From NCBI RefSeq assembly GCF_006542355.1, contig NZ_CP038141.1, positions 339,501 through 403,500 on the forward strand: 64,000 nucleotides of DNA. The letters run 5' to 3'. Every line of letters starts with the position of its first letter. The first letter of the stretch is position 1. Position numbers and translations under genes: made by a program. The stretch comes from Swingsia samuiensis (GTDB taxonomy: Bacteria > Pseudomonadota > Alphaproteobacteria > Acetobacterales > Acetobacteraceae). Below the pieces are notes generated by a model. That model was not told where the DNA came from and made no database searches. It saw only the letters and a list, made by a program, of their open reading frames with translations. Shown piece after piece: positions 42,170-51,105 of the stretch.

Positions 42170-43096
42170 GTGAAAAACCCTTCTAGAACGTTTCGTAATC
42201 TCTTCTCTCGCAAGAGTACTGCCGTGCCACATTCTATCGCGGCTGAGGCTGAAAGCATTGGTCTGCCGACCTTACTGCTGCAGGCCGAAAGACTGGCTGC
42301 AAATATACAAGATGGTCGGCATGGACGCAGGCGTTCTGGAAGTGGAGAAGATTTCTGGCAGTTCCGTCCCTACCGCTCAGATGAACCCATCACAGCGATT
42401 GACTGGAAACAATCAGCTCGCTCTGCGCAAGAAGGAGCTTTGTGGGTTCGTGATAGAGAGCAAGAATCAACCCAAAATCTTCTGATCTGGTGTGATCCAT
42501 CCGCATCCATGAACTGGCGCTCTTCAGAAAATTTTCCTCCCAAAAAAGAACGTGCTCAACTCTGTGCTTTGGCTCTCACCGCAGCTGCTTTGCGTGGCCA
42601 TGAGCGCGTCGGTCTTTTAAACGGGCCAGAAGCAGGCCGAACATTTTCAGGTAAGCATAATCTGGAACAAATTGGGGAAGCACTCCTCTACCCCTCTTCT
42701 TCAGATGCAGACTTTCCTGATCTTGCAAGAATACCACCTCGCTCAGATATCGTCATAATCAGTGATTTTCTATGGGAAGACAATAAACTCCATACTTTCT
42801 TAAAACAAAGTTCCAATTTGCCGGCTAGGATTCATCTCTTGTGTGTTCTTGACCCAGAAGAAAGATCTTTACATCAGTCTGGACGTGTCCGTTTTTCTGG
42901 TTTGGAAGGAGGGGCTTTAGTGCTTCCTGCGATGGAAACCCTTACCGCAGAATACGAAAAAGCCATGAATGCTCATTTGGAAATACTCCAAACCCATGCG
43001 TCTCAATTTAATACACAGATGATTTTACACGAAACATCTCATAACCCCCTGCCTGCTTTGCTCGCTCTTTACGCTACATTGGGATCTGGCCAATGA
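42170..43096 (+). CDS. DUF58 domain protein
   Basis: A 308-residue protein starting with GTG at 42170, ten bases after moxR. The signature is clear: RRSGSGEDFWQFRPYRSDEP followed by AIDWKQSAR. The C-terminal part is VWA-like (LLIWCDPSASMNW, with a DxSxS metal-site pattern DPSAS). It has no membrane helix. DUF58 proteins nearly always pair with MoxR ATPases. It overlaps the next gene by four bases. Confidence 0.9.
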   Translation: MKNPSRTFRNLFSRKSTAVPHSIAAEAESIGLPTLLLQAERLAANIQDGRHGRRRSGSGEDFWQFRPYRSDEPITAIDWKQSARSAQEGALWVRDREQESTQNLLIWCDPSASMNWRSSENFPPKKERAQLCALALTAAALRGHERVGLLNGPEAGRTFSGKHNLEQIGEALLYPSSSDADFPDLARIPPRSDIVIISDFLWEDNKLHTFLKQSSNLPARIHLLCVLDPEERSLHQSGRVRFSGLEGGALVLPAMETLTAEYEKAMNAHLEILQTHASQFNTQMILHETSHNPLPALLALYATLGSGQ

Positions 43097-45837
43097 TTTT
43101 GCTTTCTCCCTTTGTTCTGTTGGGGCTCATTGCTCTACCCGCTATATGGTGGCTGATCCGCGCTACGCCCCCGGCTCCTCGCGAGACTACTTTTCCCTCT
43201 TTAATACTCTTAGAGCGACTAAAACTCACCCGAGAGGATGCAACGCACGCTCCCTTATGGTTATTGCTTCTACGTATACTCGCCGTTGCTCTCATTATCT
43301 TTGGGCTTGCCCGACCTATTTTACTACCGACACAAGCTTATACCCATCGTCATTCTTTAACTTTAATCATTGATAATGGCTGGGCTTCCATCCCGCATTG
43401 GAATGATCGTGTGGCTGCAGCGCAAGTTCTTGGCCAAGCATCCTTACGCCATGGCCATCCCGTCACAATTCTGCTTGCCGCTCGAACAGCTGATGGTAGT
43501 TTGCCAGAGCCTTTTACTACTCAAGATGATCGCGCCTTTTCAAACTATCTCTCTCATATCCAACCTGAACCATGGCCGGTAGATCGTAGCGCTGTTACTA
43601 AAGTAGTAACACAATACAATCTTGCTTCTCAGGATATTATCATTTTGTCTGATGGCGTTGCTTCTTCTTCGGATGAACAACTCCAGAATGCTTTGAAGAA
43701 AAGCTCCTCTGTAGAAGATATGCGATGGAAAGGATGCGGCCCTTTTGTTCTGCATATTACTCCTGACAAAGATGGAGCTTTCACCGCAAAAACAGAAACT
43801 CTTTCCCCTTGTGCCGACACTTCTTTTTCCCTTCGCGCCATGACTTCCGAAGGGAATACTCTTGCCTCTTTTCCTCTTAAGATAGGGAAAAGCTTTTCTG
43901 TTTCGTTGCCTGTATTAGCGCGTAATCAGCTGGATCATTTCTCTCTGGAAGGGATGAAAGGACCTGCCACAACCTTCCTCTTAGGGGATGCCAATCATCG
44001 TAAACCCGTTGGAGTTTTACAAACACCCGGAGATACAACACCTCTTTTAGGGTCTGCTTTTTACCTCAAACAAGCATTAGACACGCAAGCTGAACTACGC
44101 ACAGGAGACGCCAATACTCTCCTTTCGTCCCCTCTTTCTGTCATCATCGCAACGGATGGGGCTCTTTCAGGGGATCAAACTAAAAGCAAAATCCTTGCTT
44201 GGGTTCGTCATGGTGGCATGCTTATTCGTTTTGCTGGACCAGACCTTGCCGCGCCATCGGAAAATCAAAATCAGACTGGAGGCACATCTCAATCCGACCC
44301 GCTCATTCCTGTTCCTTTAATGAATGGCATGCGTCAATTAGGAGGGCCTATGTCTTGGGGGAAGCCTCAAGCTCTGGCTTCTTTCCCTGCATCATCTCCT
44401 TTTGCAGAACTGACTATTCCAGCTGAAGTCAACATTTCCCGTCAGGTTTTAGCTAAACCCGACAATGACTTAAGCCAGCACGTCTGGGCGTCTCTCCAAG
44501 ATGGCACCCCCCTTGTGACAGCTCGGGCAGAAGGCAATGGGGAAATCGTCTTATTCCATGTTACCTCTGCACCCGATTGGTCTAATCTGCCTCTCTCAGG
44601 CTTGTTCCCAGATATGTTGGAGCGTCTCATCAACCGCTCTGCTGGTATTAATGGAAAAACCCCTTCTTCTTTAATGCCTTGGCGGATTTTAAGTGTGGAC
44701 GGAGAGCTTACTCCGCCGTCACCAGCCGCAACGTCGATACACGCAAAGGATTTTAAAACAACCGACATCAATGTGTTTCATCCTGTCGGGCTTTATGGCC
44801 CAGCGCGTGCAACTCATGCCCTTAACCTTGCAGATCATATTCCAACTTTACACACAGAGCCTTTACTCGGCACAGCTATCTCTCCCGATGGAGCGCAGCC
44901 CGAACGTCCTTTAGGGCCTTCCCTCATCTTTGCTGGTTTAATATTATTGCTCGTGGACCTTACTCTTTCTCTTAAACGTCGTGGCATCGTACCTTTTGCC
45001 ATAATGCTCTTAATATGCGGCTTCCCTTATCAAGCTTACGCACAAAGCAACGCACCTTCAGCAAGCTTAGACACTCAGATTCCTCAAGCCGCACTTGAAA
45101 CACGCCTTGCTTATATTATCACGGGTCATGATGATATTGATGCAGCGTCTCGTGCAGGGCTTGAAGGACTATCAAACTATACCAGCGCACGCAGCTCTGC
45201 TTCCTTAGGCCATCCAGACGGGGTCATTCCGGGAAAAGATGACCTAGCTTTCTACCCTTTATTATACTGGCCGATTACAGCAGATGCACAGCCTGATCCT
45301 GCTCGCATAAAAGCCCTCAACGCCTTTATGGAGCACGGAGGTATTCTACTCATTGACGAGCAAGGAGCGGGAACAGAAGTCAACCCAAGTTCTATGACCG
45401 CAATCCGTACTGCTTTACAACGTGTAACAGATGGTTTGACCATTCCCCCATTAACCACGTTAAACGACAAAAACGTTCTGAGTCATACTTTCTATCTGCT
45501 GCATAATAACTTCTCAGGCCGTATCAGTGGAGAGCCTGTTTACATCGCCCGTGAAGGCGATGAAGCTAATGATGACGTCAGCCCTGTTATCATTGGAAAT
45601 GCTGATTGGGCGCATGCTTGGGCAACAGATACGTCTGGGAATCACCCTTATGCCGTTATTCCCGGAGGGGAAGATCAACGCACATTAGCCTATCGTTTTG
45701 GAATGAACGTTGTGCTCTATGCCTTAACGGGAAATTACAAGGCAGATCAGGCGCACTACCCAGAAATGCTCCACCGTTTAGGGCAGAATAGTCCCAATGA
45801 TCCATCTTCCCAAGGCGCGGAGGGAAATGCACCATGA
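43093..45837 (+). CDS. BatA-type membrane protein with C-terminal DUF4159
   Basis: A 914-residue protein. Residues 1-80 are the BatA N-terminal domain with two membrane helices (ILLSPFVLLGLIALPAIWW and LLLLRILAVALIIFGLARP); a VWA-like domain follows (LTLIIDNGWAS, a degenerate metal site), then a long periplasmic part. Two more helices lie near 610-655 and DUF4159 near 670-890 (TRLAYIITG, FYPLLYWPI, GGILLIDEQGAG). The function is unknown; related Bat proteins were linked to aerotolerance and envelope stress. ATGA overlaps tie it to both neighbours. Confidence 0.88.
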   Translation: MILLSPFVLLGLIALPAIWWLIRATPPAPRETTFPSLILLERLKLTREDATHAPLWLLLLRILAVALIIFGLARPILLPTQAYTHRHSLTLIIDNGWASIPHWNDRVAAAQVLGQASLRHGHPVTILLAARTADGSLPEPFTTQDDRAFSNYLSHIQPEPWPVDRSAVTKVVTQYNLASQDIIILSDGVASSSDEQLQNALKKSSSVEDMRWKGCGPFVLHITPDKDGAFTAKTETLSPCADTSFSLRAMTSEGNTLASFPLKIGKSFSVSLPVLARNQLDHFSLEGMKGPATTFLLGDANHRKPVGVLQTPGDTTPLLGSAFYLKQALDTQAELRTGDANTLLSSPLSVIIATDGALSGDQTKSKILAWVRHGGMLIRFAGPDLAAPSENQNQTGGTSQSDPLIPVPLMNGMRQLGGPMSWGKPQALASFPASSPFAELTIPAEVNISRQVLAKPDNDLSQHVWASLQDGTPLVTARAEGNGEIVLFHVTSAPDWSNLPLSGLFPDMLERLINRSAGINGKTPSSLMPWRILSVDGELTPPSPAATSIHAKDFKTTDINVFHPVGLYGPARATHALNLADHIPTLHTEPLLGTAISPDGAQPERPLGPSLIFAGLILLLVDLTLSLKRRGIVPFAIMLLICGFPYQAYAQSNAPSASLDTQIPQAALETRLAYIITGHDDIDAASRAGLEGLSNYTSARSSASLGHPDGVIPGKDDLAFYPLLYWPITADAQPDPARIKALNAFMEHGGILLIDEQGAGTEVNPSSMTAIRTALQRVTDGLTIPPLTTLNDKNVLSHTFYLLHNNFSGRISGEPVYIAREGDEANDDVSPVIIGNADWAHAWATDTSGNHPYAVIPGGEDQRTLAYRFGMNVVLYALTGNYKADQAHYPEMLHRLGQNSPNDPSSQGAEGNAP

Positions 45838-48624: not shown

Positions 48625-49710
48625 TTATCCAACATTGCGCAACGCAACACTCTCCTGACGTAATACGTCAATTTGAACAAACTGCTTCTCACGTTCAAAA
48701 TACCAAAACGTCCAGCCATTGCAGGATGGCGCACCCGTCAACATTGCTCCCAATTTATGGATTGAGCCACGCTGATTACCTGAGACCAAAGTGCCATCGG
48801 GCGTTACGGTTGCTTGTAATCGCTTCTGACGATCATATAATTTTGTGCCTGCTGGAAGCTGCCCTGTCTCTACAAAACTCCCAAACGGAATACGAGGCTG
48901 CTCTCTTTTTGCAGGAGTAACGGCTAACTGTTCAGACGAAAGGCATTCTTCACGCGCCACACGCTCACGGGCAGCAGCCACGTAATCAGGGTGGCGTTCG
49001 ATTCCAACAAAGTGTCGTCCAAGCCGCTTGGCAACAGCCGGCGTAGTTCCTGTTCCACAAAAAGGATCCAGCACAATATCATTTGCATTCGTTGATGCGA
49101 CTAAAACACGGTGCAGCAAACTTTCTGGTTTCTGCGTAGGGTGTAATTTTAACCCATGCTCGTTCTTTAAACGCTCATTGCCCGTGCATAACGGCAAGTA
49201 CCAGTCCGAGCGCATTTGCAAATCATCATTCAGAGCCTTCATGGCCTGATAATTAAATCGATATCGACTTTGAGAACTTCTCGCTGCCCAAATTAATGTC
49301 TCATGCGCATTCGTAAAACGACGCCCTCTAAAATTCGGCATCGGGTTGGATTTACGCCAAATAATATCGTTTAAAATCCAAAAACCCAGATCTTGTAATA
49401 ATGTCCCTAACCGAAACACATTATGATAAGAGCCGATAACCCAAATAGAGCCATCCTTATGCAAAATTCGGCGTGCTTCTGTTAGCCATTCCCGTGTGAA
49501 ATGATCATACGTGGCATAATCATCAAACTTATCCCACTCGTCATCAACACCATCAACAATGGTTTCATCTGGACGGCGCAGCTCTCCACGCAATTGCAAA
49601 TTATAAGGTGGATCAGCAAAAATACAGTCAACGCTTCCAGAAGGCAGCATTCTCATTGTTTCAATGCATTCGCCTCTAAGTATTTGGTCTAAGGGGAACT
49701 CACTACTCAT
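48625..49710 (-). CDS. ccrM: CcrM-type DNA adenine methyltransferase
   Basis: A 361-residue beta-class methyltransferase. The catalytic motif IV DPPYNLQL (residues 33-40) precedes the SAM-binding motif I DPFCGTGTT (215-223), the order of the beta class. The C-terminal about 85 residues (GTKLYDRQKRLQATVTPDGTLV) form the extra domain found in CcrM. CcrM methylates the adenine of GANTC after replication and times cell-cycle genes in alphaproteobacteria. No restriction partner is nearby, which fits a solitary regulator. Its ATG overlaps the rnhB stop by four bases. Confidence 0.95.
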   Translation of the reverse strand: MSSEFPLDQILRGECIETMRMLPSGSVDCIFADPPYNLQLRGELRRPDETIVDGVDDEWDKFDDYATYDHFTREWLTEARRILHKDGSIWVIGSYHNVFRLGTLLQDLGFWILNDIIWRKSNPMPNFRGRRFTNAHETLIWAARSSQSRYRFNYQAMKALNDDLQMRSDWYLPLCTGNERLKNEHGLKLHPTQKPESLLHRVLVASTNANDIVLDPFCGTGTTPAVAKRLGRHFVGIERHPDYVAAARERVAREECLSSEQLAVTPAKREQPRIPFGSFVETGQLPAGTKLYDRQKRLQATVTPDGTLVSGNQRGSIHKLGAMLTGAPSCNGWTFWYFEREKQFVQIDVLRQESVALRNVG

Positions 49711-50332
49711 ACTGCATCTGCCTTTGCGTCAATAATACTACGAATTGGCGCAAATCCGCGCCTGTGATGAGGAGTTACCCCTCTCATCTTCAAGCCGCTC
49801 AAATGAGCAGCCGTCCCATACCCCGCGTTTCTTTCCCATCCATATCCATCATACCGCCGGGCTAAACGCTCCATCAGACGGTCTCGGGTAACTTTAGCAA
49901 CGATAGAAGCTGCTGCGATGGAGAGGCTGATATGATCCCCTCCGATCACCATTTTTATAGGGCATGGCATGTTTTTGGGGGCGTGTTTCCCATCAATCAA
50001 TGCCAGATCAGGTATATGACCAAGGTTCAATAGAGCACGTTTCATGGCTAAATGCGTAGCCTGTCCAATATTGATCTCTTCAATCTCTTCAACGGAAGCC
50101 GCTCCTATTCCTATGTAATAATCGGGAGCAGCCTTCAGTGCTTGATAGGCCATCATCCGTTTTTAGAGGAAAGCTTTTTGGAATCATCCAAGAGTAAAAG
50201 CATGTCCCCTTCTGGAGGAGAGGTAAAAGCCACTGCTGCAGCTACAACAGGCCCTGCCAAAGGACCACGCCCCACTTCGTCAATACCGACGACTAAACCA
50301 CCATGGGCTGCTTCAAGGGCGTAATCAGGCAT
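49707..50332 (-). pseudogene. rnhB: ribonuclease HII, split by a one-base frameshift
   Basis: The gene starts at the ATG at 50332 ([27 protein letters not shown]) and reads to [11 protein letters not shown], then meets TGA at 50155-50153. The rest continues in another frame from ATG 50156 ([30 protein letters not shown]) to the C-terminus. Adding one A to the run of five A at 50164-50160 restores SSKKRMMAYQ and a 208-residue RNase HII of normal length. The carboxylates are split: Asp18 and Glu19 lie in the first piece, the later Asp of LIDGKHAP and GGDH in the second, so neither piece alone should be active. It may be a true mutation, a sequencing error in the homopolymer, or slippage-rescued. 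The enzyme removes RNA from RNA/DNA hybrids. Confidence 0.9.
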
Positions 50333-50469: not shown

Positions 50470-51105
50470 TTACAACTCTGCATGATCGTCTGATTGAGGT
50501 TCATTAGAAGAATGTGACGCTCCCTCAGAGTTTTGATTGTGAATTTGGCGGATCTGTTGCTGAATCTGCGGCCATTCCTGCAAAACCTTTATCGTATTAA
50601 CTCCGTACAAAACGACACTGACAGCAAAAATAAGCCGTCCCTTTTTTAAAATTTTCAGCCTTTTCCAAAAATAACCCGGTGAAAATATCCACCACCAAAA
50701 ACTAGGCGGTTTTTTATTGGTTTGACGTATTAAGCTCCGATCCATTGTTAAGGCTAAAAAATAAAGAACAAATATAATAAATGAAATGACAGATGCTGCT
50801 TGCTGAGCCTGCTCAGAAGCAACATGCCGCCACTGAAAAATATAAAATGTTAACCGATCAATTGCCCATGGGCCAACCAACATAATCCATGCCCAGTATT
50901 CGGGTATCTTCCCCGAACGCAAGCGCGTTAACCCAGATAATGGCAATATTAATCCAGATTTTGCGACAGGCTTCCACTCATCTCCAAAAGAAGACGTCCA
51001 TACTAACGTTTCTAACCCAATCCTCCGCTGAACAATCAGCTGCAAAATCTCATCTCGAGAGACAGGTCCTATTTGTTGCCCATTATTTTCATAGAACCAT
51101 TCCAT
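50470..51105 (-). CDS. GYF_2 (DUF4339) domain membrane protein
   Basis: A 211-residue protein. Residues 1-52 form a GYF_2 domain (WFYENNGQQIGPVSRDEI, then TLVWTSSFGDEWKPV), usually a protein-binding module. Three to four hydrophobic helices follow (about 68-90, 103-122, 150-170), and a polar tail rich in Gln, Asn, Ser and His ends it. The function is unknown. Its ribosome binding site lies inside the terminator that follows the CsbD-like gene, see that entry. Confidence 0.82.
   Translation of the reverse strand: MEWFYENNGQQIGPVSRDEILQLIVQRRIGLETLVWTSSFGDEWKPVAKSGLILPLSGLTRLRSGKIPEYWAWIMLVGPWAIDRLTFYIFQWRHVASEQAQQAASVISFIIFVLYFLALTMDRSLIRQTNKKPPSFWWWIFSPGYFWKRLKILKKGRLIFAVSVVLYGVNTIKVLQEWPQIQQQIRQIHNQNSEGASHSSNEPQSDDHAEL

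Follow-up and report, generated by a model that had tools for sequence, protein, structure and literature searches.

A one-base frameshift divides the RNase HII gene of Swingsia samuiensis and may be a recent null mutation

RESULTS

Organization of the rnhB locus

The window, i.e., the whole stretch of 64,000 nucleotides of Swingsia samuiensis DNA analyzed here, carries the RNase HII gene rnhB on its minus strand (50332 to 49707) in the form of two open reading frames (ORFs) of 59 and 149 amino acids, with one base missing between them. The first ORF starts with the ATG at 50332 and terminates with the TGA at 50155 to 50153, and the second one extends from the ATG at 50156 to 50154 to a stop codon ending at 49707. 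The locus comprises the following features:

50153 to 50332, minus strand: 5' piece of rnhB, 59 aa, carrying GIDEVGRG (the 10 letters of its C-terminal end are not shown)
50160 to 50164, minus strand: run of five A on the coding strand (five T on the plus strand), the point of the frame change
50153 to 50156, minus strand: ATGA, stop of the 5' piece overlapping the start of the 3' piece
49707 to 50156, minus strand: 3' piece of rnhB, 149 aa, carrying LIDG and TRD
49707 to 49710, minus strand: ATGA, stop of rnhB overlapping the start of ccrM
48625 to 49710, minus strand: ccrM-like adenine methyltransferase, 361 aa, downstream of rnhB (NF050803, 628.6 bits, below the model cut-off of 830)

From the first start to the last stop, rnhB measures 626 bases, and with one base added it would comprise 208 codons and a stop, in agreement with the 208 residues of the original prediction; the products encoded in the reference stretches of nine relatives begin at the same MPD and have 207 or 215 aa. 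Upstream of rnhB, positions 50470 to 51105 encode a protein of 211 aa in which a GYF_2 domain was recognized (E 1.3e-11) and for which NCBIfam gave no match at E 0.001.

Both pieces were identified as RNase HII. The Pfam profile RNase_HII matched the 5' piece over profile positions 1 to 45 (E 8.1e-12, 45.9 bits) and the 3' piece over positions 69 to 197 (E 9.9e-26, 91.3 bits), in each case above the cut-off of 25.8 bits. The NCBIfam models for ribonuclease HII match both pieces with scores under their cut-offs (best piece, 158 bits versus 167 for NF000595), which is expected of fragments when an equivalog model is applied to a single piece. All seven solved sequences matched by the 3' piece are RNase HII (e.g., 7uwe_C and 3o3g_A). 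We take GIDEVGRG, the Asp-Glu motif, together with LIDG and TRD to be the active-site carboxylate motifs of RNase HII; they do not lie in one chain, and their distribution, the first on the 5' piece and the other two on the 3' piece, is the one that had been predicted. The frame switch at window position 50162 was found against all nine reference stretches (G011, G021, G007, G025, L110 to L113, and L115). Under a stricter gene list it was seen with eight of the nine, G007 being missing, and we infer that a longer antisense frame was probably chosen there.

Distribution of the break among relatives

The closest named loci are those of Gluconobacter morbifer (74%) and Gluconobacter wancherniae (73%); a second genome of the species did not turn up in the searches, from which very close records may be missing. 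Among the 26 genomes of the genus that were searched, rnhB is unbroken in all 25 others, each of which has a single match spanning profile positions 1 to 197 without an internal stop, and this continuity in 25/25 congeners argues that the break of S. samuiensis is not a chance result. The original prediction of a one-base frameshift in rnhB at five A (50160 to 50164) was hence confirmed by the RNase HII matches of both pieces and the unbroken genes of the relatives. The observation that would have spoken against it, an in-frame gene in relatives with the same five A, was looked for and found in none, since 0/25 congeners carry the run; examples of their codons at this site are GCC CGG CGC CGG ATG and GCG AAG CGG CGC ATG.

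In the family Acetobacteraceae, a profile search detected RNase HII in 290 of 297 genomes. Each of the seven genomes that lacked a match is a draft assembly in at least 90 contigs, and with a looser limit two of them gave sub-threshold hits alone (E 0.48 and 0.55). Two matches in one genome were found in only 3/297 cases, namely S. samuiensis (G000), G031, where both are full length, and G188, a one-contig genome of another genus in which rnhB occupies two frames that meet near a run of seven G (L170, G188:C1:2122651-2123198). A partial match in G249 lies at a contig end, and G076 has a single full-length frame with a lower score; coverage per match was seen for the matches listed. Judged from these sequences, S. 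samuiensis is not the only member of the family with a broken rnhB, but such genes are rare, as the survey of 297 genomes with the likewise split gene of G188 indicates.

Frame breaks and homopolymers in the surrounding 264 kb

A break that sits in a homopolymer, that is absent from 25/25 congeners, and that has a counterpart at another homopolymer in G188 would fit a base-calling or assembly error, in which case the cell would have an unbroken rnhB and the consensus would have lost an A from a short homopolymer. The original prediction had added that such an error would warn of other homopolymer indels in the assembly. We scanned 264 kb of S. samuiensis (the window plus 200 kb) against the rnhB-surrounding stretches of nine relatives (four long ones of 160 to 300 kb and five of 20 kb) for breaks supported by two references; the scan required 40% identity and at least about 15 aa on the far side of the break, so that it may overlook breaks near the ends of genes. 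Homologues were present in one or more references for 143 of the 236 called frames and in two or more for 121.

Only two candidates were supported by two or more references, namely rnhB and a frame at C1 about 427920 (joined 188420; three references). The latter was dropped because it runs antisense to what, from the translation, is presumably rplL (L7/L12) together with the beginning of rpoB. Three further signals outside the two-reference list were rejected as shadow frames, i.e., two weak hits near 7.9 to 8.2 kb of the window (one with G011 and one with G007) and a hit of G007 that runs antisense across rnhB/ccrM. Besides rnhB, the scan against the nine relatives' stretches thus found no real break in the 264 kb. 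The same scan of the long control stretches gave two candidates in G011, one in G021, one in G007, and three in G025. G021 seems to have a frame-broken gene of some 915 aa when compared with nine references (joined stretch about 164400, C1 about 330400); its counterpart in the window is a single frame at 43093 to 45837.

An orthologue covering 70% both ways was present for 137 frames, including the 3' piece of rnhB, and in the window for 52 of 54 called frames, the same piece counted in. The other 136 orthologue-supported genes contain 177 runs of six or more identical bases (152 of A/T), and the lack of a second real break despite these runs indicates that the consensus is good at such runs. 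Homopolymer indels are thus not a general problem of the assembly, and the predicted warning found no support. This result weighs against an error at rnhB, although one slip among some 136 genes is compatible with a sequencing or assembly error.

Conservation of the two pieces

The 5' piece has no changes at 36 columns that are invariant in the other 25 genomes (any congener, at most 2 of 38), whereas in the 3' piece 7 of 92 invariant columns are changed (any congener, at most 3 of 88); the counts of the congeners are lowered because most of them have close kin in the set. The branch leading to S. samuiensis exceeds those of the relatives 1.56-fold for the 5' piece, 1.45-fold for the 3' piece, and 1.47-fold for both. 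The median ratio is 1.19 for a set of 37 genes that have orthologues in four reference genomes, and ccrM has the same value; eight of the 37 genes lie above 1.47. These alignments suggest at most a mild relaxation of constraint on a long branch, and the changes of the 3' piece could reflect either such a relaxation or the long branch alone. The scarcity of decay beyond the break itself disfavors an old loss, so that a mutation, if real, must be young. This in turn makes an error, which would leave the remainder of rnhB roughly normally constrained, nearly as likely as a real mutation; the conservation data would suit either a loss of very recent date or a slip in the assembly.

Back-up functions

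A search of the S. samuiensis genome with the RNase HII profile, which also covers RNase HIII, returned the two rnhB pieces and nothing else; accordingly, no RNase HIII was seen. Another RNase H, as proposed in the original prediction, is present in the form of rnhA (RNase HI; open frame of 158 codons, E 2.0e-43), and uvrA was detected with 1423.8 bits. rnhA is kept in all ten family genomes that were queried (G000, G188, G249, and the seven without an RNase HII match). The presence of RNase HI and UvrA argues that a loss of RNase HII can be survived and is probably tolerable.

DISCUSSION

We assign a probability of roughly one half to the reading that a real and recent single-base deletion, a null mutation, put rnhB of S. 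samuiensis out of frame. The five A observed today would most likely be what a slip left of six A in this AT-shifted genome; codons that are GC-rich in the congeners appear here as an A run, a natural slip site. The G+C content of the 264 kb is 44.6%, compared with 54 to 63% in the stretches of the nine relatives, and the genome measures 2.19 Mb versus 2.4 to 3.6 Mb in the congeners. A small and AT-shifted genome, as in gene-losing lineages, is suggestive of a host-associated and shrinking lineage. The main text of two papers on genome reduction in Asaia mentions neither rnhB nor RNase H or ribonuclease H.

The immediate consequence of the deletion would be a premature end of the first ORF at TGA. 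Two adjacent Met codons stand in the rnhB frame at the break, the first of which is present in 18/25 congeners and the second in none, and it is because of these codons that the TGA is reached at once after the loss of a base and that the two pieces overlap in ATGA. Re-initiation at the overlapping ATG may still yield the second piece and would keep translation running into ccrM. ATGA is found at the end of rnhB in 25/25 congeners, and the codons behind it resemble the ccrM start of the window in 21 of them (not in G003, G019, G021, and G023). The enzyme itself, divided through its active site, is most likely dead, and the cell would remain viable, with RNase HI and nucleotide excision repair taking over a sufficient share of its task.

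The same overlap can be read in the opposite direction, i.e., as a sign that both ORFs are translated in an ATGA-coupled manner and that the pieces combine into a functional split enzyme or, failing that, feed ribosomes into ccrM. The ATGA of the pieces resembles that between rnhB and ccrM in the same operon, the second Met is absent from all 25 congeners, both pieces are under roughly normal constraint, and translational coupling has been described as a cause of apparent frame transitions (PMC3711429). However, 18 of the 25 congeners share the first Met as an ordinary codon, so that the overlap may simply have arisen along with the base loss, and the break occurs in just 1/26 genomes of the genus and separates the active-site carboxylates. 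We consider this reading highly improbable, and more improbable still its full form, a natural two-chain RNase HII whose 59-aa and 149-aa pieces are made from one mRNA by ATGA-coupled re-initiation and combine to give an active enzyme, with ribosomes also being passed on from the second piece to ccrM.

The original prediction had also considered that the cell depends on slippage. Five A exactly at the point of the frame change and the conservation of rnhB otherwise would suit a programmed or transcriptional slippage that restores full-length RNase HII, but the A run is conserved in none of the 25 congeners, and in the 83 nt downstream of the break no stimulatory structure for a programmed frameshift was found, the fold being no better than that of shuffled sequences (z = -0.02). 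Five A are, moreover, short for polymerase slippage. This rescue did not find support and is the least credible of all readings; overall, it is very unlikely that anything functional arises from the broken rnhB.

The serious competitor of a recent deletion is a dropped base in the consensus, to which we give somewhat less than even odds. For BLASTp-validated, unclustered frame transitions, the authors of a survey of complete genomes favor sequencing error over real indels (PMC3711429). If the break is an error, it is a single slip and not the mark of an unreliable assembly. If it is true, S. samuiensis adds one more natural loss of RNase HII alongside RNase HI and UvrA, and thereby a natural case for the importance of ribonucleotide excision repair. 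RNase HII starts this pathway and nucleotide excision repair serves as a back-up in Escherichia coli (PMC3820734). A real break may raise the ribonucleotide load of the DNA, as stated in the original prediction; the published effects of rnhB deletions differ among species, i.e., no altered phenotype was noted in M. smegmatis (PMC4300193) and hybrids accumulate in B. subtilis (PMC10371020).

Three known cases resemble the rnhB break of S. samuiensis. In Xanthomonas campestris pv. vesicatoria 85-10, the consulted portion of the report describes an rnhB frameshift of one strain with intact genes in other strains of the species, albeit in a different organism and with no position given for the break (PMC1950709). 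G188 shares the RNase HII profile over two frames in a one-contig genome, but its break lies later in the gene and at seven G. The singleton frame transitions of complete genomes are likewise homology-validated breaks of one genome alone, unlike the present case in that the survey is statistical (PMC3711429). The rnhB break of S. samuiensis is accordingly an ordinary one, and a frameshift of this gene in a single strain is already in print.
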